Source: an uncultured Lutibacter sp. (GTDB lineage: Bacteria > Bacteroidota > Bacteroidia > Flavobacteriales > Flavobacteriaceae). Taken from it: 64,000 nucleotides of DNA. The DNA lies in NCBI RefSeq assembly GCF_947495725.1, contig NZ_CANLZZ010000002.1:761315-825314 (forward strand), read 5' to 3'. Position 1 is the stretch's first letter, and each line of letters starts with the position of its first letter. A model generated the notes under the pieces. It did not search any database. It saw only the letters and a program-made list of their open reading frames with translations, and was not told where the DNA came from. This document shows positions 8,318 to 48,416 of the stretch, piece after piece. The position numbers were made by a program, and so were the translations under genes.

Positions 8318-8383
8318 ATGAAACAAACTATTATCAATATTATTTCTGTCGTTGTCGTTGTGATAATTTCGCAAACCGATTAG
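8318..8383 (+). CDS. ilv leader peptide (Ile/Val-rich, 21 aa)
   Basis: This short ORF, not in the track, reads ATG to TAG and encodes a 21-residue peptide with the core IINIISVVVVVII. Eleven of 21 residues are Ile (6) or Val (5), with no Leu. That composition is the hallmark of a leader whose translation senses charged tRNA-Ile and tRNA-Val. The stop codon overlaps a segment that can pair with the 5' arm of the downstream terminator. It lies in the 381-base gap before ilvD and has no coding role beyond regulation. Leader assignment is by inference from composition, position and the linked attenuator, which together are strong. Confidence 0.88.
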   Translation: MKQTIINIISVVVVVIISQTD

Positions 8384-8426
8384 GAATAGTTGAGTAATAT
8401 CATAATATTATAGTAAACCTTCCTAA
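8380..8426 (+). promoter_or_regulatory. Antiterminator pairing of the ilv attenuator
   Basis: TTAGGAA (8380-8386), which includes the leader stop codon, is perfectly complementary to TTCCTAA (8420-8426), the loop-proximal half of the terminator's 5' arm. A ribosome stalled on Ile/Val codons leaves TTAGGAA free, so this pairing would block the terminator. A ribosome reaching the stop codon masks it and allows termination. Confidence 0.8.
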
Positions 8427-8448
8427 TTAAATTTAGGGAGGTTTTTTT
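8415..8448 (+). terminator. Intrinsic terminator (attenuator) before ilvD
   Basis: AAACCTTCCTAA pairs with TTAGGGAGGTTT across a 6-base loop. This is a 12-bp stem with one G-T wobble, directly followed by a run of seven T. It lies 31 bases after the leader stop and about 210 bases before ilvD, the position expected of a transcription attenuator. Confidence 0.9.
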
Positions 8449-8572
8449 AATTTATAATCATTGTAAAAAAAAGAGGTTTAACTGTCATAAAATCAGCGAG
8501 GTATGGGTAATAAAAGGTAAATGAGTATTGTAAAAAAAATAAAAGAATAAAGAAAATAACAAATGTGAAATT

Positions 8573-15372: not shown

Positions 15373-15487
15373 CATATTTTTGCTTATTTCTATTAATAAT
15401 TGTTAATTATAAGGAGCGTAAATAGGAATGTTGTTAATTATTAAACAAAACTAAAATTATATTAAAAAAATGCGTAATATTGTACCA

Positions 15488-15553
15488 ATGAAAATAAGCA
15501 ATTTAAATACTTCAATTGTACGCCGCTTTTTGCGCCGCCCCTTATGGGCGTAA
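15488..15553 (+). CDS. arg leader peptide (four Arg CGC codons, 21 aa)
   Basis: This short ORF, absent from the track, runs from ATG at 15488 to TAA at 15553. It encodes a 21-residue peptide containing VRRFLRRPLW. All four arginines use CGC in two adjacent pairs, whereas genes around it favour AGA and CGT. It lies in the 264-base gap immediately before the arginine cluster, 83 bases upstream of the GNAT gene. The GC-rich codons stand out sharply from the AT-rich surroundings. By analogy with amino-acid leader peptides it should sense charged tRNA-Arg. Function is inferred, but position plus composition make chance unlikely. Confidence 0.8.
   Translation: MKISNLNTSIVRRFLRRPLWA
15536..15550 (+). 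promoter_or_regulatory. GC-rich hairpin in the arg leader ORF
   Basis: CGCCC-CTTAT-GGGCG is a perfect 5-bp GC stem over the last Arg codon and the next four codons. A competing pairing, TACGCC (15519-15524) with GGCGTA (15547-15552), would span the Arg codons instead. Ribosome position would decide between them. Confidence 0.55.
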
Positions 15554-15562
15554 TTTTCTATT

Positions 15563-15583
15563 GAAAACGATGCGTTCGTTTTC
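15563..15583 (+). promoter_or_regulatory. Second hairpin downstream of the arg leader stop
   Basis: GAAAACGA-TGCGT-TCGTTTTC is a perfect 8-bp stem with a 5-base loop, 9 bases after the leader stop. Its 5' arm can instead pair with TTTTC at 15554-15558. The flank is TTTTCGCTTCTCAT without a true T-tract, so a Rho-independent terminator is not clear. It could act through pausing, Rho, or translation. Confidence 0.55.
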
Positions 15584-15636
15584 GCTTCTCATAAAAAAAC
15601 ATAATTAAGTTAATTTTATAATTCAAAAGGTAAACA

Positions 15637-16251
15637 ATGAAAGTTGTTATTGCTAATATATCGCATATTAAATATGCTGAGATAATTTGTGAAACTATTA
15701 AAGAGTCTGCAAAAGTTAGAGGAACTGGAATTGCAGAAAGAACTCCAGAATATATTTCAAAAAAAATAAGTACGGGTGATGCTATTATTGCTATAGAAAA
15801 TGATGAGTTTGCAGGATTCTGTTATATAGAAACCTGGGATAATAAATCGTTTGTAGTAAACTCGGGTTTAATTGTACATCCAAATTTTAGAAATCAGGGT
15901 TTAGCTAAAAAAATAAAAAAGAAAATTTTAGAATATTCTCAAGAGAAATATCCTGACGCTAAAATTTTTGGAATAACTACAGGCTTGGCAGTTTTAAAAA
16001 TTAATTACGAATTAGGATATCAACCTGTAACATTTTCGGAATTAACTACCGACGAAGCTTTTTGGAATGGTTGTAGAACTTGTAAAAATTTCGATGTTTT
16101 AACGAGAACCGAACGTAAAATGTGTTTATGCACAGGAATGTTATACGATCCTAAGCACAAAAAAATTATAAAAGAGCATAAATACGATTCTAAAGTATTA
16201 AGTAGATTAAAAAAGATTAAACAAGCATTATTTCTAAAGAAGAAAAAATAA
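15637..16251 (+). CDS. GNAT-family acyltransferase, probable first enzyme of arginine synthesis
   Basis: This 204-residue protein has a GNAT fold with the acyl-CoA loop HPNFRNQGLAKKI at about 81-93. It heads the arginine cluster, where an N-acylglutamate synthase is expected, and no argA or argJ is present. I infer it acylates glutamate with acetyl- or succinyl-CoA. A C-terminal cysteine set, CRTC (146-149) and CLC (163-165), looks like a small metal knuckle, unusual for a GNAT. The last 20 residues are very lysine-rich. argG starts 5 bases after its stop. Family is firm; substrate is inference from context. Confidence 0.75.
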   Translation: MKVVIANISHIKYAEIICETIKESAKVRGTGIAERTPEYISKKISTGDAIIAIENDEFAGFCYIETWDNKSFVVNSGLIVHPNFRNQGLAKKIKKKILEYSQEKYPDAKIFGITTGLAVLKINYELGYQPVTFSELTTDEAFWNGCRTCKNFDVLTRTERKMCLCTGMLYDPKHKKIIKEHKYDSKVLSRLKKIKQALFLKKKK

Positions 16252-16256
16252 ATATC

Positions 16257-17438
16257 ATGGAAAAAGTTGTAGTTGCATATAGCGGAGGTTTAGACACATC
16301 ATATTGTGTTAAATATTTACAAAACGAATTAAATTTAGAAGTTCACAGCGTACTTGTTAATACAGGTGGATTTTCTGAAGAAGAATTAAAAGTAGTTGAA
16401 GCAAAAGCATATGATATGGGGGTAAAATCTCATACAAATCAAAATATTTTAGATATATATTACGAAAAAGCCATAAAATTTATGGTGTATGGTAATGTGT
16501 TAAAAAATAATACATATCCATTATCTGTAAGTGCAGAGAGAGTGTTTCAGGCAATTGAAGTTGTAGAATATGCCAAAACAATAAACGCAAAATACATTGC
16601 CCACGGAAGTACTGGTGCAGGTAACGATCAGGTTAGATTTGATATGATATTTCAAACCCTAGCTCCAGAAATTGAAATTATAACACCAATTCGAGATTTA
16701 AAACTTTCCAGACAAGAAGAAATTGAATATTTAAAGAAACACGGAGTAGATTATCCTTGGTCTAAAGCAAAGTATTCCATTAATAAAGGAATTTGGGGAA
16801 CAAGTGTTGGTGGTGTTGAAACCTTAACATCTCACCAAGCCTTGCCAGAAGAAGCTTACCCAAGTCAATTAGAAAAAACCGAACCTACCGATATTAAATT
16901 ACACTTTGAAAAAGGTGAATTGGTTGGATTGAATGATGAAATAGATACTCCTGTAAATACAATTTTAAAACTTGAAGAAATAGCCTCTAAATACGCAATT
17001 GGTAGAGATATTCATGTTGGAGATACAATTGTTGGGATTAAAGGAAGAGTTGGTTTTGAAGCTGCGGCTGCAACCGTAATTATTAAAGCGCATCATTTGT
17101 TAGAAAAGCATGTACTTTCTAAATGGCAACAAAATATGAAAGAAGGATTAGGTAGTACCTACGGAATGTTATTGCACGATGGTCAGTACTTCGAACCTGC
17201 AATGAGAGACATTGAAGCTTACTTAACTAATTCTCAAAAAACAGTTACAGGAGAAGTTTTTGTAACCTTAAAACCTTATCACTTTAGTTTAAATGGAATT
17301 GAATCTAGACACGATTTAATGAAATCTAAATTTGGTGAATATGGAGAAACAAATAAGGCTTGGAGTGCAGAAGATGCAAAAGGATTTATTAAAATATTGG
17401 GAACAGCAAATAAAATTTATCACAGCGTAAATTCATAA
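16257..17438 (+). CDS. argG: Argininosuccinate synthase
   Basis: ArgG joins citrulline and aspartate using ATP, the penultimate arginine step. The PP-loop ATP motif AYSGGLDTSYCV is at about 8-19 and further conserved stretches include AHGSTGAGNDQVRFD and SKAKYSINKGIWG. The 393 residues match the usual ~400. It is second in the cluster, between the GNAT gene and argC (2-base gap), although it acts late in the pathway. Confidence 0.96.
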   Translation: MEKVVVAYSGGLDTSYCVKYLQNELNLEVHSVLVNTGGFSEEELKVVEAKAYDMGVKSHTNQNILDIYYEKAIKFMVYGNVLKNNTYPLSVSAERVFQAIEVVEYAKTINAKYIAHGSTGAGNDQVRFDMIFQTLAPEIEIITPIRDLKLSRQEEIEYLKKHGVDYPWSKAKYSINKGIWGTSVGGVETLTSHQALPEEAYPSQLEKTEPTDIKLHFEKGELVGLNDEIDTPVNTILKLEEIASKYAIGRDIHVGDTIVGIKGRVGFEAAAATVIIKAHHLLEKHVLSKWQQNMKEGLGSTYGMLLHDGQYFEPAMRDIEAYLTNSQKTVTGEVFVTLKPYHFSLNGIESRHDLMKSKFGEYGETNKAWSAEDAKGFIKILGTANKIYHSVNS

Positions 17439-17440
17439 TT

Positions 17441-18418
17441 ATGATTAAAGTAGGAATAGTTGGTGGAGCAGGATATACTGCAGGGGAATTAATTAGATTA
17501 TTGGTAAATCACCCAAAAGCAGATTTAGATTTTGTATATAGTACATCAAATGCAGGAAACTATATTTATCAAGTACATCAAGATTTATTAGGTTCTATAG
17601 ATTTAAAGTTTACTGATACAATTAATAAAAATGTTGATGTGTTATTTTTGTGTTTAGGACACGGAAATTCTACAGCCTTTTTAGAAAATAATGAATTTTC
17701 TAAATCAACAAAAGTAATTGATCTAAGTAACGATTTTAGATTAAATGCTGATGCCAATTTTAAAGGGAGAAAATTTGTTTATGGAATTCCAGAATCTCAA
17801 AAAAGTGAAATTAAAGGGGCTGCAAATATTGCCAATCCAGGATGTTTTGCAACTGCAATTCAATTGGCTTTATTGCCATTAGCAAATGCTTCAAAAATTA
17901 ACGATACTGTGCACATAAATGCTACTACAGGTTCTACAGGAGCCGGAGTTTCACCTATGGCAACAACACATTTTAGCTGGAGAGATAATAATTTTTCAGT
18001 TTATAAGGCATTTACACATCAACATTTAGGAGAAATAGGAGAGAGCATAACGGAACTTCAAAATGGTTTTAATCAAGAATTATTGTTTATACCAAATAGA
18101 GGTAACTTTAGTAGAGGAATTTTTGCAAGTATATACTTGAAATTTGATGAGAGCCTTGAAAAAGCTTTTGAGTTATTTGAAGATTTTTACAAAGATGCTG
18201 CGTTTACGCATGTTTCAAAATCACCAATTCATTTAAAACAAGTTGTAAATACTAACAATTGTTTTTTACATCTTCAAAAACACGGAAATCAATTGTTAAT
18301 TACCTCGGCAATTGATAATTTATTAAAAGGAGCTTCTGGTCAGGCTATTCAAAATATGAATTTAATGTTTGGCTTTAATGAATCAGAAGGATTAAAATTA
18401 AAAGCGAATTCATTTTAG
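17441..18418 (+). CDS. argC: N-acyl-gamma-glutamyl-phosphate reductase
   Basis: ArgC reduces the N-acylglutamyl phosphate made by ArgB to the semialdehyde with NADPH. The N-terminus has the Rossmann motif GIVGGAGYTAGELIRLL. The catalytic cysteine is C135 in NPGCFATAIQ, and the downstream ATTGSTGAG stretch fits the family. At 325 residues it is a normal-length single protein not fused to ArgB. It follows argG by 2 bases and precedes proC by 105. Confidence 0.95.
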   Translation: MIKVGIVGGAGYTAGELIRLLVNHPKADLDFVYSTSNAGNYIYQVHQDLLGSIDLKFTDTINKNVDVLFLCLGHGNSTAFLENNEFSKSTKVIDLSNDFRLNADANFKGRKFVYGIPESQKSEIKGAANIANPGCFATAIQLALLPLANASKINDTVHINATTGSTGAGVSPMATTHFSWRDNNFSVYKAFTHQHLGEIGESITELQNGFNQELLFIPNRGNFSRGIFASIYLKFDESLEKAFELFEDFYKDAAFTHVSKSPIHLKQVVNTNNCFLHLQKHGNQLLITSAIDNLLKGASGQAIQNMNLMFGFNESEGLKLKANSF

Positions 18419-18523: not shown

Positions 18524-19318
18524 ATGAAAATAGCGATTTTAGGAACAGGAAATTTAGGATATTCAATAGCAATTGGTATTTTAACTCAAGACAATTTTAA
18601 GTTTAAAAATTTGTATTTAACAAAACGAAATACATCATCTTTAGATTCTTGGTCAAAACTACCCAATGTTAAAATTTCAACAGATAATAAAAAAGCTGTT
18701 CGTTTTTCGGATGTTATTATTATTGCTGTACAGCCAAATCAACTTCGTGATGTTTTGGAAGAAATTAAAGATGTGGTTAATCCTAAAAGACATACCGTTA
18801 TTTCAGTTGTTACAGGTAGAAAAATAAATGAAATAGAAAATATTTTAGAAAAAGATATTGCTATTGTTAGAAGCATGCCAAATACAGCTATTTCGGTTGG
18901 GCAATCTATGACTTGTTTAAGTGCAAATAAGAAAGGAAGTGAGAATGTTGAATTGGCTAAAATGATATTCAATTCTTTAGGGAAAACAATGTGTATTGAA
19001 GAAAAGTTAATGCAAGCTGCCACAGTTATTTGCGCAAGTGGAATTGCTTTTTGGATGCGTTTAATTCGTGCAACAACACAAGGTGCAGTTCAATTAGGTT
19101 TTGATGCAGAAGAGGCACAAGAATTATCGATGCAAACTGCATTGGGTGCTGCAAGTTTATTAATAAAATCGGGTAATCACCCAGAAGAAGAAATTGATAA
19201 AGTTACAACTCCAAGTGGTTGCACAATTGAAGGTTTAAATGAAATGGAACATCAAGGACTAAGTTCGTCTTTAATAAAAGGTCTTGTAACATCTTTCGAA
19301 AAAATTAATCAAATTTAA
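18524..19318 (+). CDS. proC: Pyrroline-5-carboxylate reductase
   Basis: ProC reduces pyrroline-5-carboxylate to proline. The 264-residue protein opens with ILGTGNLGYSIAIGIL (Rossmann NAD(P) loop) and has VRSMPNTAISVGQSMT, the strongly conserved proC segment, and the C-terminal TTPSGCTIEGLNEME resembling the family signature. It lies inside the arginine cluster, showing that glutamate-derived proline and arginine genes are co-organised here. The 105-base gap before it holds no clear signal. Confidence 0.93.
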   Translation: MKIAILGTGNLGYSIAIGILTQDNFKFKNLYLTKRNTSSLDSWSKLPNVKISTDNKKAVRFSDVIIIAVQPNQLRDVLEEIKDVVNPKRHTVISVVTGRKINEIENILEKDIAIVRSMPNTAISVGQSMTCLSANKKGSENVELAKMIFNSLGKTMCIEEKLMQAATVICASGIAFWMRLIRATTQGAVQLGFDAEEAQELSMQTALGAASLLIKSGNHPEEEIDKVTTPSGCTIEGLNEMEHQGLSSSLIKGLVTSFEKINQI

Positions 19319-19328
19319 AATTATTGTT

Positions 19329-20453
19329 ATGGAATTATTTGATGTTTACCCGTTGTATAATGTAACACCTGTAAAAGCAGAAGGTGCTTATGTATGGGAT
19401 GAAAATAACAGAAAATATTTGGATTTATATGGTGGTCATGGAGTAATTTCAGTTGGCCATACACACCCAAAGTATGTAAATGATATTACTAGCCAATTAA
19501 ATAATTTAGGATTTTATTCTAATTCAATTCAAAACCCATTACAAAAAGAGTTGGCTAATAAATTAGGGAAGTTATCTAATTGTGAAAATTATAATTTGTT
19601 TTTATGTAATTCTGGAGCAGAGGCAAATGAAAATGCCTTAAAATTAGCTTCTTTTAAAACAGGTAAAAGTAGAATTATTTCTTTTAATAATTCTTTTCAC
19701 GGAAGAACTTCGGCTGCAGTTGCGGCAACTGATAATAAAAATATAAATGCACCAATTAATTTACAGCAAGAAGTTACATTTTTACCTTTAAATAATATTA
19801 AATTGGTAATTCACGAAATTGGAAAGGGAGATGTTGCTGCAGTTATTATTGAAGGAATTCAAGGTGTTGGAGGGTTGGATGAAGGTACTACCGAGTTTTT
19901 TCAAGAAGTTGAAAAATTTTGCAAAAAACATGGAGTATTTCTAATTTTAGATGAAATTCAGTCTGGTTATGGAAGAAGCGGAAAGTTTTTTGCGTTTCAA
20001 CATCATATTATTAAACCAGATATTATTACAACGGCAAAAGGAATGGGAAATGGATTTCCAATTGGAGGTGTTTTAATTTTGGATAAACATGAGGCTAAAT
20101 ATGGAATGTTAGGTACTACATTTGGAGGGAATCATTTGGCTTGTGCAGCAGCAATTTCAGTATTAGATATTATCAAAGAGGAAGAATTAATAGAGAATGT
20201 TAATAAAACTTCAGCATACCTTTTAGAGCAAATTAAAACCATTTCGCAAGTAAAAAAAGTGAAAGGAAAAGGTTTAATGTTAGGTGTTGAATTCGATTTT
20301 GAAGTTGGAGAGTTACGTAAAAAACTAATTTTTGAAAAACAGATTTTTACAGGTGGATCAATGAATAAGAATCTGCTAAGAATATTACCTCCTTTAACAA
20401 TGAATACAGATCAAGTAGATGTTTTTATAAATGCATTACAAGAAGTTTTATAA
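19329..20453 (+). CDS. argD: N-acylornithine aminotransferase
   Basis: A class-III PLP aminotransferase that converts the N-acylglutamate semialdehyde to N-acylornithine using glutamate. Visible motifs are CNSGAEANENALKLA (about 93-107), HGRTSA, ILDEIQSGYGRSGKFFA with PLP-contacting D208, and the lysine K237 in TTAKGMGNGFPIGG. The 374 residues are full length. Its stop overlaps the proA start by one base (TAATG). Given the transcarbamylase specificity next door, the natural substrate may be the succinyl form. Confidence 0.94.
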   Translation: MELFDVYPLYNVTPVKAEGAYVWDENNRKYLDLYGGHGVISVGHTHPKYVNDITSQLNNLGFYSNSIQNPLQKELANKLGKLSNCENYNLFLCNSGAEANENALKLASFKTGKSRIISFNNSFHGRTSAAVAATDNKNINAPINLQQEVTFLPLNNIKLVIHEIGKGDVAAVIIEGIQGVGGLDEGTTEFFQEVEKFCKKHGVFLILDEIQSGYGRSGKFFAFQHHIIKPDIITTAKGMGNGFPIGGVLILDKHEAKYGMLGTTFGGNHLACAAAISVLDIIKEEELIENVNKTSAYLLEQIKTISQVKKVKGKGLMLGVEFDFEVGELRKKLIFEKQIFTGGSMNKNLLRILPPLTMNTDQVDVFINALQEVL

Positions 20454-21649
20454 TGAATGCACTATTAACAACTCAACAAAAAAATGATGTTTTGAGCACA
20501 ATGGCTCAATTAATCAATTCAGAACAAGCGTCAATAGTTTCAGCCAATACTCTAGATGTAGAAGGTTACAATGGAGATGATTTGGCAATGGAAAAAAGGC
20601 TAAAAGTTGATGATGCTAAAATTGCAGGGATGATTTTATCATTAAAACAATTAGTAGCAGATTCTGAGCCAATTGGTAAAGAGTTATTTAACTTTATTCA
20701 CGAAAACGGTATTAAAATAGTTAATAAAACAGCTCCTTTTGGAACCGTTTTAATTATATACGAATCTAGGCCAGATGTTACTGTTGAAGCTGCAGGTATT
20801 GCTTTTAAATCTGGTAATAAAATTTTATTAAAAGGAGGGAAGGAGTCGTTAAATTCGAACTTAAAAATTGTGGAATTATGGCACAAAGCTTTAAAGCAAC
20901 ACAATATTTCTACAGATTGGGTAGAGTATCTAAATTACGATAGGGTTAAAACACAAGAATTTCTTGAAAATCCTACGCAACAATTAGATTTAATTGTTCC
21001 ACGTGGTGGAGAAAAATTGATTGAATTTGTTAAGAAAAATGCTAAATGTCCTGTAATTGTAAGTGGGAGAGGAAACAACTTTGTGTATGTAGATTCTGAA
21101 GCAGATATTGATATGGCGTTGAATATTATCAATAACGGGAAAACATCAAATATATCTGTTTGTAATGCAGTAGATAAAGTGTTAATTAATTCAAATTTGG
21201 AAAACAAAGATCAATTTATAAAAGCATTGGTTGATAAATTGTTAAAGTCTAATGTTGAGATTTTTGGTGATGCTGTTTTATCGAAATTTGATAATATTTC
21301 AGCTTATGAAAATGAATCAATTTGGTATCAAGAGTTTTTAGATTATAAGATTGTTATTGGTAGTGTGGATTCCACTGAAGAGGCAATTTCTAAATCAAAC
21401 AAGTATAGTGGAGGACATTCTGCAGTTATTATTACAAAAAATGATGAAACAGCAGAAACCTTTATGGAAAATACGGATTGTGCTGCAGTATATCAAAACG
21501 CATCTTCTAGATTCACCGATGGTGGTCAGTTTGGATTAGGAGGAGAGTTGGCAATTAGTACAGATAAATTACATCATAGAGGTCCAATGGGCTTACATCA
21601 TTTGGTTACTAATAAATGGTACGTAAAAGGAAATGGGCAAATTAGATAA
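20453..21649 (+). CDS. proA: Gamma-glutamyl phosphate reductase
   Basis: ProA reduces glutamyl-5-phosphate to the semialdehyde that cyclises to pyrroline-5-carboxylate. The aldehyde dehydrogenase-like fold is seen in PFGTVLIIYESRPDVTVEAAG and LKGGKESLNSN. The likely catalytic cysteine is in SNISVCNAVDKVLI, and the C-terminus has SSRFTDGGQFGLGGELAIST. The 398 residues are standard. It overlaps argD by 1 base and proB by 17, tightly coupled in the order proA-proB, the reverse of E. coli. Confidence 0.95.
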   Translation: MNALLTTQQKNDVLSTMAQLINSEQASIVSANTLDVEGYNGDDLAMEKRLKVDDAKIAGMILSLKQLVADSEPIGKELFNFIHENGIKIVNKTAPFGTVLIIYESRPDVTVEAAGIAFKSGNKILLKGGKESLNSNLKIVELWHKALKQHNISTDWVEYLNYDRVKTQEFLENPTQQLDLIVPRGGEKLIEFVKKNAKCPVIVSGRGNNFVYVDSEADIDMALNIINNGKTSNISVCNAVDKVLINSNLENKDQFIKALVDKLLKSNVEIFGDAVLSKFDNISAYENESIWYQEFLDYKIVIGSVDSTEEAISKSNKYSGGHSAVIITKNDETAETFMENTDCAAVYQNASSRFTDGGQFGLGGELAISTDKLHHRGPMGLHHLVTNKWYVKGNGQIR

Positions 21650-22412
21650 AAAAAGAATTTTATTAAAAATTGGTTCTAATGTTTTAACAAAAGAAACCAA
21701 TCAAATTTCTAGAGGTAAACTTGAGGATATTGCACGTCAAATAGCTCAATTAAAAGATAAATACGAATTTGTTATCGTAAGTTCGGGTGCAATAGCTGTA
21801 GCTAAACAATTTGTTGAGCTAGAAAGCAATGGTAAACTAATTAATGTTAAACAAGCTTTGGCATCAATAGGTCAACCGCATTTAATGCGAATTTTTCATG
21901 AGAATTTTTGGGAGCTTGGCTTGTTTACTTCTCAATGTTTATTGTCGTATTCCGATTTCAAAAAAGAAAAATCTAGAACCAATATTAAAAACACTATAAA
22001 TGTGTTGGTTGAAAATAATTACATACCCATTATTAATGAAAATGATACTGTTGCAACAGATGAAATTAAGTTTGGAGATAATGATAAATTATCGGCATTA
22101 ACAGCTTCATTATTAAATGTCGATTTGTTAATTATTGCAACAAATACAAACGGTATTTATACCAAAGCTTCAATAGAGGCTGACAAATTAAAAACTATAA
22201 AAGAAACTTCGGAAATTGAACCATTAAAAAATCAAATAAATAGTAATTCAATATCTAAGCATGGTACAGGTGGTATGGCTACAAAAATTGCTGCTGCCGA
22301 AATTGCTCAAAATGCAAAAATAGAAACTTGGATTGTTAATGGGTTAAAAGATAATTTTATTATTGATGCAATTAATAATACTTCGGAGTTTACTAAAATA
22401 ATTACAAAATAA
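21633..22412 (+). CDS. proB: Glutamate 5-kinase without PUA domain
   Basis: ProB phosphorylates glutamate, the first proline step. The amino-acid-kinase fold is visible in RILLKIGSNVL, VIVSSGAIAVAKQ, NENDTVATDEIKFGDNDKLSALTA and KHGTGGMATKIAAAEIA. At 259 residues it ends where the kinase domain ends and lacks the C-terminal PUA domain of the 367-residue E. coli enzyme. The ATG at 21633 lies inside proA and gives a 17-base overlap. argF' begins 1 base after its stop. Confidence 0.93.
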   Translation: MGKLDKKRILLKIGSNVLTKETNQISRGKLEDIARQIAQLKDKYEFVIVSSGAIAVAKQFVELESNGKLINVKQALASIGQPHLMRIFHENFWELGLFTSQCLLSYSDFKKEKSRTNIKNTINVLVENNYIPIINENDTVATDEIKFGDNDKLSALTASLLNVDLLIIATNTNGIYTKASIEADKLKTIKETSEIEPLKNQINSNSISKHGTGGMATKIAAAEIAQNAKIETWIVNGLKDNFIIDAINNTSEFTKIITK

Positions 22413-22413
22413 A

Positions 22414-23361
22414 ATGAATCATTATTTAAGTATTAACGATTTAGATAATTTGCAAAACACAGTGCAAGAGGCTATTGAGTTAAAAAAACAACCATTAAAG
22501 TTTGAAAGTTTAGGGAAAGATAAAACAATATGTTTATTGTTCTTTAACAACAGTTTACGTACCCGTTTGAGCACTCAAAAGGCAGCTCAAAATTTAGGTA
22601 TGAATCCGATTGTTATGAATTTCGGAGCAGAAGGGTGGCAGTTGGAATATGAAGATGGTGTTATAATGAATGAAAATAAATCGGAACACGTAAAAGAAGC
22701 CGCTGAGGTAATTGCACAGTATTGCGATATTGTTGCAATAAGAGCTTTTGCAAGTTTAACAGATAAAGAAAAAGATTTAGCAGAGGTTGTATTAAACAAC
22801 TTTGAAAAATACGCAGGCATTCCTGTGGTGAATATGGAAAGTGCTGTTGGTCACCCTTTACAAGCTTTAGCAGATGCTATTACGTTAGAGGAAAACAAAG
22901 TTAATCATAAGCCAAAAGTAGTATTAAGTTGGGCACCGCATCCAAAAGCATTACCACATGCGGTTGCAAATTCTTTTGTTGAAATGATGCAATTACAAGA
23001 TGCTGATTTTGTTATTACACATCCTGAAGGCTATGAGTTAGATCCAGAAATAACAAAAGATTCAACTATTGAATATGACCAGAAGAAAGCTTTTGAAAAT
23101 GCAGATTTCGTATATGTAAAAAATTGGAGCAGTTTTAAAGAATATGGTAAAGTTGTAAATACCGACTCTAATTGGATGATAACCGGTGATAAAATGAGGG
23201 CAACAAACAATGGTAAATTTATGCATTGTTTACCAGTAAGACGAAATGTTGTAGTTGCGGATGAAGTTATCGATTCTGAAAATTCAATTGTAATTGAACA
23301 AGCAAATAATAGAACATATTCTGCTCAAATAGTTTTGAAAAAAATATTGGAGAATATGTAA
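22414..23361 (+). CDS. N-acylornithine carbamoyltransferase, probably N-succinyl-specific
   Basis: This is a transcarbamylase that makes N-acylcitrulline from N-acylornithine and carbamoyl phosphate. The carbamoyl phosphate loop reads FNNSLRTRLS (44-53), with the leucine-containing variant seen in Bacteroides fragilis SOTCase instead of STRTR of classical OTCase. HPLQALAD and HCLPVRR complete the site. In the family, a single residue separates acetyl (Glu92) from succinyl (Pro90) specificity. Here the aligned residue is Ser90 in NENKSEHV, and I recall Ser being among the substitutions that favour succinylornithine. The 315 residues are typical. Confidence 0.88.
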   Translation: MNHYLSINDLDNLQNTVQEAIELKKQPLKFESLGKDKTICLLFFNNSLRTRLSTQKAAQNLGMNPIVMNFGAEGWQLEYEDGVIMNENKSEHVKEAAEVIAQYCDIVAIRAFASLTDKEKDLAEVVLNNFEKYAGIPVVNMESAVGHPLQALADAITLEENKVNHKPKVVLSWAPHPKALPHAVANSFVEMMQLQDADFVITHPEGYELDPEITKDSTIEYDQKKAFENADFVYVKNWSSFKEYGKVVNTDSNWMITGDKMRATNNGKFMHCLPVRRNVVVADEVIDSENSIVIEQANNRTYSAQIVLKKILENM

Positions 23362-23470: not shown

Positions 23471-24253
23471 ATGACTAAACAAACACTACAAATTATAAAA
23501 ATAGGAGGTAATGTAATTAACAATGAAGAAGCATTATTTTCTTTTTTAAAGGATTTTTCAGAATTGAAGGGACCTAAAATTTTAGTTCATGGTGGAGGTA
23601 AAAAGGCCACTGAAGTTTCCTCTGCAATGGGTTTACAACCTAAAATGATAAACGGTAGGAGAGTAACAGATGAAGCAACAGTTGAAGTAGTAACAATGGT
23701 ATATGCTGGTTTATTAAATAAGAAAATAACAGCAAAGTTGCAAGGTTTTGGGTGCAATGCAATGGGACTTTCAGGCACCGATGCCAACTGTATTTTGGCA
23801 CATAAACGTATTGTAAAAGATATCGATTATGGTTTTGCGGGTGATGTTGATGCCGTTAATTCGGAAATTATAAATGTGCTATTACAAAATAATGTAACAC
23901 CAGTTTTTTGTGCAATTACTCATGATAAAAAGGGGCAATTATTAAATACAAATGCAGATACAATAGCTTCTGAAGTATCAATAGGTATGAGTTCAATGTA
24001 TAATACAGAATTAAATTTTGTGTTTGAATTAAAGGGTGTTTTAGAAAACATTGAAGATAAAGATTCTGTTATTAAAGAAATTAATTCTGAAAAATATGAA
24101 GAGTTAGTAGCTCGTGGAATTATTGCAGACGGAATGCTTCCAAAAATGCATAATTGTTTTAATTCATTAAAAAAAGGAGTAAGTAAAGTGAAAATTGGAG
24201 ATGCTTCTTTAATAAAAAATTCAACAAAATTATATACAACATTAACAATATAA
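23471..24253 (+). CDS. argB: N-acylglutamate kinase
   Basis: ArgB phosphorylates N-acylglutamate, the second acyl-route step. It is an amino-acid kinase with QIIKIGGNVINN at the N-terminus, VHGGGKKATEVS, GRRVTDEATVEVVTMVYAG and NTNADTIASEVSI. The 260 residues are within family range. The kinase may accept N-succinylglutamate, as suggested for other Bacteroidota, but this cannot be read directly. It is separated from argF' by a repeat element and from argE by 51 bases. Confidence 0.93.
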   Translation: MTKQTLQIIKIGGNVINNEEALFSFLKDFSELKGPKILVHGGGKKATEVSSAMGLQPKMINGRRVTDEATVEVVTMVYAGLLNKKITAKLQGFGCNAMGLSGTDANCILAHKRIVKDIDYGFAGDVDAVNSEIINVLLQNNVTPVFCAITHDKKGQLLNTNADTIASEVSIGMSSMYNTELNFVFELKGVLENIEDKDSVIKEINSEKYEELVARGIIADGMLPKMHNCFNSLKKGVSKVKIGDASLIKNSTKLYTTLTI

Positions 24254-24304: not shown

Positions 24305-25363
24305 ATGATTGATCAATTAACAAAACAGGCTATTGAATTACTTAAAAAGTTGATTTCAAAGCAATCTTTTTCTGGAGAAGAAAATGAAACTGCATTATTG
24401 ATTATGCAATGGTTTTCGCATCATGACATTAAGTTTGAAAGTGAAAAACACAATGTTTGGGCAATTAATAAATACTTCGACCCTTCTAAAAAAACAATAT
24501 TACTAAATTCACATCACGATACGGTAAAACCAAATAAAGGGTATACGCGTGATCCTTTAAAAGCGGAAGTTTTAGATGGTAAGTTATATGGATTAGGAAG
24601 TAATGATGCCGGAGGATGTTTGGTTTCGTTGCTAGCAACCTTTACCTATTTTTATAATAGAGAAGATTTAAAATACAATTTTTTAATGGTTGCTTCAGCT
24701 GAAGAAGAAAATACGGGACCAAATGGATTACATAGTATTATACCCATATTGCCAGAAATTGATTTTGCTATTGTGGGCGAACCTACTTTAATGAATTTGG
24801 CTATCGCCGAAAAAGGTTTAATGGTACTAAATTGCGAAGCAAAAGGAACTTCGGGGCACGCAGCTCACGGTAATGCAGATAACGCCATTTATAACGCTAT
24901 AGAAGATATTAATTGGTTTAAAACCTATGAATTTCCTAAAGTATCTGAAACACTTGGTAAAGTAAGAATGACAGTTACTCAAATAGAAGCAGGAAGTCAA
25001 CACAACGTAATACCATCGAGCTGTAAATTTGTGGTAGATGTAAGAGTTACTGATGCATATAGCAACCAAGAGGTGTTTGAAATTGTTGAATCTAAGGTTA
25101 AATCAGAAGTTTGCCCAAGATCACAACGCTTAAACTCTTCGTCAATTCCAAAAGACCATCCAATTGTGTTGGCAGGCGTTAAATTAGGTAGAGAAACATA
25201 TGGATCGCCAACCATTTCAGATCAAGCAATATTAACGTGTCCTTCATTAAAATTGGGGCCAGGAGAAAGTTTACGTTCGCATACGGCAGATGAGTTTATC
25301 TATGTTAGAGAAATTGAAGAAGGTGTGGATTTATATATTAAAATATTAGAAGAAATAGTATAA
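24305..25363 (+). CDS. argE: N-acylcitrulline/N-acylornithine deacylase (M20 family)
   Basis: A zinc hydrolase of the ArgE/DapE (M20) family that would remove the acyl group from N-acylcitrulline. Zinc ligands and catalytic residues are visible: H70 and D72 in NSHHDTV, D101 in GSNDAGG, and the Glu pair at about 133-134 in ASAEEENTGP. VGEPT and the dimerisation insert follow. At 352 residues it is slightly shorter than E. coli ArgE. Its presence with no argJ implies a linear, deacylating pathway. The argE-argH gap carries repeat copy 2. Confidence 0.9.
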   Translation: MIDQLTKQAIELLKKLISKQSFSGEENETALLIMQWFSHHDIKFESEKHNVWAINKYFDPSKKTILLNSHHDTVKPNKGYTRDPLKAEVLDGKLYGLGSNDAGGCLVSLLATFTYFYNREDLKYNFLMVASAEEENTGPNGLHSIIPILPEIDFAIVGEPTLMNLAIAEKGLMVLNCEAKGTSGHAAHGNADNAIYNAIEDINWFKTYEFPKVSETLGKVRMTVTQIEAGSQHNVIPSSCKFVVDVRVTDAYSNQEVFEIVESKVKSEVCPRSQRLNSSSIPKDHPIVLAGVKLGRETYGSPTISDQAILTCPSLKLGPGESLRSHTADEFIYVREIEEGVDLYIKILEEIV

Positions 25364-48328: not shown

Positions 48329-48402
48329 GGCCTCGTGGCGCAACTGAATAGCGCACTGGATTTCGGCTCCAGCGGTTGCAGGTTTGAATCCTGCCGGGGT
48401 CA
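48329..48402 (+). tRNA. tRNA-Arg (anticodon TCG)
   Basis: A complete 74-base cloverleaf: acceptor GGCCTCG/CGGGGTC (two G-T wobbles), D stem GCGC/GCGC, anticodon stem CTGGA/TCCAG around TTTCGGC giving anticodon TCG, variable CGGTT, T stem GCAGG/CCTGC with loop TTTGAAT, and discriminator A. No CCA is encoded. It would read CGA (Arg). It is followed by its own terminator and a gene-poor, decayed stretch. Confidence 0.96.
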
Positions 48403-48416
48403 CAAAATTTCTTAAA

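Follow-up and report, generated by a model that had tools for sequence, protein, structure and literature searches.

A probable arginine-sensing leader with two conserved hairpins ahead of the arginine operon of Flavobacteriaceae

The trp, his and ilv leaders of Proteobacteria consist of an ORF rich in cognate codons that stands before the cognate operon, with hairpins overlapping or following it, and the same arrangement was found at the locus described here. However, the amino acid is in this case arginine, the hosts form an ArgR-less group, the ORF is predicted to be almost leaderless, no conserved terminator/antiterminator switch was found, and the second of the two hairpins (Y and T) carries a conserved tip and is often devoid of a U-tract. 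Bacteroid-trp RNA involves a Trp leader peptide. Likewise structured and found in Bacteroidetes, it was judged cis-regulatory and named for trp in its published description (RF01692, PMC2864571), but its Rfam model had no match here, either in the window (the whole 64,000-nt stretch of Lutibacter DNA analysed) at the gathering threshold or in nine leader loci at E 1. A study of Flavobacterium psychrophilum, a member of the same family as Lutibacter, describes strong indications that leader peptides attenuate amino-acid operons, together with 5' elements that are conserved at pheA and hisG (PMC9723704); its main text names no arginine operons. Among mycobacteria, where leaderless transcripts are common, Cys-rich uORFs of leaderless type likewise precede cognate genes and attenuation has been proposed (PMC4633059); they differ from the present leader in phylum and amino acid, and hairpins such as Y and T do not figure in the description of these uORFs. 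The rbfL leader of Staphylococcus aureus, too, uses pausing at Arg codons to sense when arginine is limiting, and this has been tested experimentally (PMC13009471). It differs in relying on the rare codons AGG and AGA and in its target, a biofilm regulator and not an arginine-biosynthesis operon; the ribosome binding site of this regulator is blocked, with repression at low arginine. A targeted search of the open-access literature, with older comparative attenuation surveys outside its scope, returned no arginine-biosynthesis leader peptide in Bacteroidota.

The features of the locus are collected in Table 1. The initial annotation had described an ATG-to-TAA ORF with two CGC pairs, which was present in the sequence exactly as stated; its length of 21 codons was common to 10 of 10 short-form Lutibacter genomes. 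An in-frame ATG at 15470, which would add six codons upstream of 15488, was rejected as the leader start: this codon overlaps with the promoter box and has not been kept across the genus, where 15488 is the start that is conserved. The reported scarcity of CGC in the vicinity was borne out as well, since 7 of the 137 Arg codons (5%) counted in the 15 genes nearby were CGC, versus 4 of 4 in the leader. AGA represented 58% of the Arg codons of these genes. Among the 529 ATG ORFs of 10-40 codons on both strands of the window, seven contained at least four Arg codons and the leader ORF was the only one with four CGC.

Table 1. Features of the Lutibacter arginine leader and of the downstream operon (positions within the window).
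Feature	Position	Strand	Remarks
Sigma-A -7 box	15475-15482	+	TAATATTG; 7/8 match to consensus TAnnTTTG
Leader ORF	15488-15553	+	21 sense codons, MKISNLNTSIVRRFLRRPLWA; ATG 15488-15490, TAA 15551-15553
CGC-CGC pair 1 (Arg12-Arg13)	15521-15526	+	Candidate stall site
Match to covariance model R1 (Y + T)	15523-15589	+	59.1 bits, E 3.8e-14 over loci searched
CGC-CGC pair 2 (Arg16-Arg17)	15533-15538	+	Overlaps Y 5' arm
Hairpin Y	15536-15550	+	Stem CGCCC/GGGCG (15536-15540/15546-15550, five GC pairs), loop CUUAU, U-rich tail UAAUUUUCUAUU; fold -7.5 kcal/mol
Hairpin T	15563-15583	+	Perfect, 8 bp; loop UGCGU at 15571-15575
Spacer from T to first gene	15584-15636	+	G-poor, A/U-rich; length near constant, mostly 46-52 nt in relatives
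argA-like GNAT N-acetyltransferase	15637-16251	+	First gene of operon; weak NCBIfam PRK07757 match, below cut-off; conserved
argG, argininosuccinate synthase	16257-17438	+	
argC	17441-18418	+	
proC	18524-19318	+	
argD-type aminotransferase	19329-20453	+	
proA	20453-21649	+	
proB	21633-22412	+	
argF' (N-acetylornithine carbamoyltransferase)	22414-23361	+	Above curated cut-off
argB	23471-24253	+	
M20-type peptidase/deacylase, argE-like	24305-25363	+	ORF; name inferred from position

Conservation of the Arg codons in relatives held across Flavobacteriaceae (123 loci) and supports the claim of an unannotated Arg-codon leader peptide ahead of the arginine operon. At these loci 38% of the codons in the last nine leader positions specified arginine, compared with 2.5% of the codons of the neighbouring genes; this share is somewhat inflated because the reading frame was picked by Arg content, the excess still being fifteen-fold. 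In these last nine positions CGC (230) and CGT (165) dominated over AGG (19), CGG (6), CGA (5) and AGA (1), so that the leaders appear to sample CGY codons and to avoid AGA, the dominant codon in the genes, a bias that may partly be imposed by the hairpins. In most genera besides Lutibacter the ORF ends in CGT CGT CGC CCG TAA or alike and its stop codon lies inside the GUAA loop of Y (CGT CGC CCG TAA GGGTG), an arrangement that links Y with translation. As judged by codon content, the predicted leader is thus a short ORF rich in codons for the pathway product, a feature of ribosome-mediated attenuators.

In F. psychrophilum the -7 box is reported to span -12 to -5 and leaderless transcripts represent only 5.5% of mapped mRNAs (PMC9723704). 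From the -7 box of the window, the transcription start was predicted at ~15487, 0-2 or at most 4 nt ahead of the leader ATG, and the leader ORF is therefore probably leaderless or nearly so; the predicted start is upstream of the ORF and not downstream of 15553, a location that the initial annotation had considered incompatible with a leader. At 126 of 136 loci a TAnnTTTG box stood ahead of the leader ATG, in most cases at a distance of 4-8 nt; this is an upper figure since the best-scoring candidate was taken at each locus, the spacing itself being evident in the sequences; for comparison, 8.9% of all ATGs in the window are preceded by such a box. Shine-Dalgarno initiation is largely absent from Bacteroidota, and the locus is an example from this phylum of a leader peptide whose ORF is probably leaderless.

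The predicted leader is on the same strand as its cognate operon and directly upstream of it, as in known attenuators, and would be co-transcribed with it. ArgR is the usual bacterial repressor of arginine genes. Its model (PF01316) had no match in the Lutibacter genome, detected ArgR in nine control genomes including a Bacteroides, and gave a single marginal match across 148 Flavobacteriales genomes. The Flavobacteriaceae are a large and ecologically important family, and the leader offers a concrete, testable answer to the question of how its ArgR-less members could control arginine synthesis. The only tRNA gene of the window is a tRNA-Arg with anticodon TCG (48329-48403).

Compensatory change supports both hairpins, T far more than Y, for which it consists of one pair that has gone from C-G to A-U in relatives, both sides having changed. 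As for the pairings proposed earlier as alternatives over the Arg codons, CGCCC/GGGCG, i.e. Y, was predicted and conserved, whereas TACGCC/GGCGTA, whose arms are present in the window (15519-15524/15547-15552), was not predicted to form and was lost in relatives (GGCTTAA in L002-L004). Terminator prediction flagged Y with UAAUUUUCUA as terminator-like in the window and left T unflagged. The 8 nt following Y are only moderately U-rich, with a mean of 4.1 U in Lutibacter and 3.3 elsewhere. The second perfect hairpin announced 9 nt past the leader stop was recovered as T; the competing partner attributed to it found no support, T being predicted folded at most ribosome positions. With a bulge of 0-3 nt allowed on the 5' side, the lower stem of T was paired in 714 of 738 cells over 123 loci, compared with 610 (sd 6.6, maximum 629) when 3' arms were shuffled among sequences; the shuffles overstate the significance because the sequences are related, but double changes were nonetheless many, and 38 different arm combinations occurred among the loci. 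In the window no T-tract follows T beyond UUUUC-GCUUCUC, and the 8 nt after T contain a mean of 2.1 U in relatives beyond Lutibacter and 1.0 in the ATTTCC-type (47 loci). With the U-tract after T missing in many relatives, among them most of these 47, simple intrinsic termination indeed appears improbable, as the initial annotation had suggested. At positions 6-14 past T the spacer comprises about 50-65% A and 20% C, with scant G.

Several other identities were considered for T and rejected. A coding segment was discarded because the frame that is open in the ATTTCC group (ATG GAA ATA GGT GAG TCC) is closed in genera of the GGTTCC-type (AGG TGA), and because the changes are non-synonymous; a DNA operator was discarded because the variation of the arms is compensatory. 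A general attenuator part was not retained either, the search with the Y+T model having given no second strong copy in any genome. Identity by name with the GUCCY-hairpin, as it is presented in PMC2864571, was set aside since T mostly reads GUCC followed by A or G, a comparison made by name. Finally, GGUGAGUCC, by eye complementary to the 3' end of 16S rRNA, is not retained in Lutibacter (GAUGCGUUC).

A covariance model of Y and T was used to evaluate the distribution of the element. In the own genome its single strong place was the arginine operon (E 4e-13, the next match having E 9.3). Of 35 Flavobacteriaceae genomes sampled that have the argA-like gene, genus g21 (probably Flavobacterium) left out, 34 had the element ahead of the argA-like/argG operon, and the genomes searched had one strong site each, always at the arginine operon. 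Besides Lutibacter, over 30 genera of the family have kept it, including Flagellimonas, Maribacter, Zobellia, Arenibacter, Winogradskyella, Salinimicrobium, Gillisia and Gelidibacter. No convincing match was obtained outside Flavobacteriaceae in a phylum-wide genome sample, and no strong match in the sampled genomes of g21. Rfam gave no match in the window at the gathering threshold and none at E 1 in the nine leader loci, and its T-box models were without match in both sets; Y+T therefore represents a family-wide RNA element missing from Rfam.

We consider it likely that the leader is a ribosome-mediated arginine attenuator in which ribosomes stalled at CGY codons occlude Y. Transcription would begin at or beside the leader ATG, and the RNA on which the ORF is translated would be nearly leaderless. 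A shortage of charged tRNA-Arg for CGY codons would stall the ribosome at the CGC pairs; as the second pair belongs to Y, the stalled ribosome would hold Y open and the operon would be expressed. With ample arginine, the ribosome would complete the leader and depart, Y would fold beside T, and expression would be lower. Both the stalling and the direction of control are what we infer. In a folding model that represents the ribosome as an unpaired footprint on the leader RNA, Y was formed at 0.94 when ribosome-free and at 0.96 with the A site on the first Arg codon (15521), versus at most 0.06 for A-site positions 15524, 15533 and 15536 and for the stop codon (15524-15551). T reached 0.89-0.99 in transcripts to 15600 or 15640, and about 0.3 with the ribosome at the stop. 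In the model, Y thus depends on ribosome position and T mostly does not, so that Y, and not T, would be switchable by a stalled ribosome. Since Y is predicted to be switchable and is terminator-like, and T lacks a U-tract in many relatives, attenuation through Y is favoured. Against the proposal stand the folding of Y with the A site at 15521, the modest U content of its tail, the missing U-tract after T in the ATTTCC-type loci and the failure to find a conserved terminator/antiterminator pair. We give roughly even odds that Y and T together act by ending transcription prematurely, and not through Rho or a T-binding factor. As far as its sequence indicates, the arginine leader resembles an attenuator in all features that precede the output step, and it probably senses arginine shortage via stalled ribosomes, in place of ArgR, across the family.

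A classical attenuator of trp type would have T as terminator, a stall freeing the 3' arm of Y or the post-stop UUUUC to pair with the 5' part of T. The order leader-Y-T recalls the 1:2 and 3:4 pairings, UUUUC:GAAAA reached 0.56 in the folding model (shortest transcript, A site at 15524), and downstream of T the window has UUUUCGCUUCUC and some relatives have T-runs. However, T stayed at 0.95 or above with the A site on any tested Arg codon once 15600 was transcribed, neither antiterminator pairing is conserved, and no U-tract follows T in a large group of loci, unlike in the ilv attenuator found in the same window; all this makes such an attenuator unlikely. The candidate antiterminator GGGCGUA:UGCGUUC amounts to 7 bp in the window and was rejected, as it was not predicted and is absent with Y of the GCAC/GUGC-type although T is unchanged. 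No conserved pairing among relatives formed a mutually exclusive terminator/antiterminator pair, and since this feature was looked for and not found, we refrain from placing the leader among the classical attenuators. The ilvD leader MKQTIINIISVVVVVIISQTD (8318-8383, region 8318-8460) is of the canonical branched-chain type. Its segments ATTAGGAA (8379-8386) and TTCCTAAT (8420-8427) can pair with each other, and seven T follow a terminator of 12 bp (8415-8444); it thus possesses the antiterminator/terminator pair and T run, in contrast to the arginine leader, which has no such conserved pair.

Other explanations concern what T or the spacer may recruit. T could be the site for a protein or RNA specific to the arginine operon, leader translation deciding on its binding or action, a possibility that we hold to be somewhat doubtful. 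Its tip, G(G/A)-UGNG(U/C)-(C/U)C, is conserved while the stem drifts, the bulged A below the tip is conserved outside Lutibacter, the distance from T to the first gene is near-fixed, and the Y+T model finds no other strong match in the genomes searched. However, the invariance of the tip is overstated as loci were gathered by this very motif, the tip being absent in 27 loci (mostly from g21 or other families) and replaced by a different hairpin in Wenyingzhuangia and Ochrovirga (L082, L091); the bulged A is moreover missing in most Lutibacter, and we know of no candidate binder. Conservation of the tip is puzzling in itself, since a plain terminator would suffice there. With similarly low confidence, a leader without intrinsic terminator can be envisaged, in which T with its conserved UGNGY tip would be recognised by an arginine-operon-specific factor, and in which the leaderless CGY ORF would be the family-wide arginine sensor replacing ArgR. 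Rho-dependent attenuation, with the 50-nt G-poor spacer as a Rho loading site governed by the leader ribosome, would agree with the A-rich, G-poor composition of this spacer and with the many relatives without a canonical terminator; G-poor, A/U-rich sequence is however probably usual before flavobacterial start codons too, and we find this mechanism quite improbable. Finally, the conserved position of the ORF could reflect a small protein, rich in Arg, that has a function by itself and no regulatory role, but it is chiefly the Arg codons and the Pro after them that are kept while length and remaining sequence drift, and a conserved hairpin overlaps the coding end, which leaves this explanation hardly credible.

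Besides the loci that support the arginine attenuator proposed above, other arrangements were encountered. In Wenyingzhuangia and Ochrovirga the hairpin present instead of T is GGAATAGCCTG...CAGGGTATTCC, with a more U-rich stretch a few bases on. Five g21 loci (L140, L142, L143, L144 and L158) carry leader ORFs with CGG/AGA Arg codons (SRTNRPTTSPEVRML) and are devoid of Y+T; by their sequence, they represent another variety of arginine leader. Leader ORFs with Arg codons were also present in other families of the same order (L149, L154, L155, L156 and L157), where they come with different hairpins and in several cases follow a TAnnTTTG box, which suggests that arginine leaders reach beyond Flavobacteriaceae.

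Two forms of the leader were distinguished. In the tandem form (L007, L012, L064, L065, L117, L126 and some 45 further loci), an extra Arg-rich ORF1, e.g. MLSQRNKIERPTRLLSRRRRR, precedes ORF2, which ends in Y. A long-range stem encloses ORF1, whose start region pairs with a stretch just ahead of ORF2, often followed by a U-rich tract; ORF1 with this stem possibly constitutes a second attenuator in series. The short form, found in the window and at the other Lutibacter loci concerned (L001-L006, L008, L009, L011 and L014 in all), corresponds to an ORF1-like start fused to an ORF2-like end. It needs four changes on the argA-argG DNA tree, of which at least three are forced by well supported branches, so that the short form arose repeatedly or was exchanged between species.
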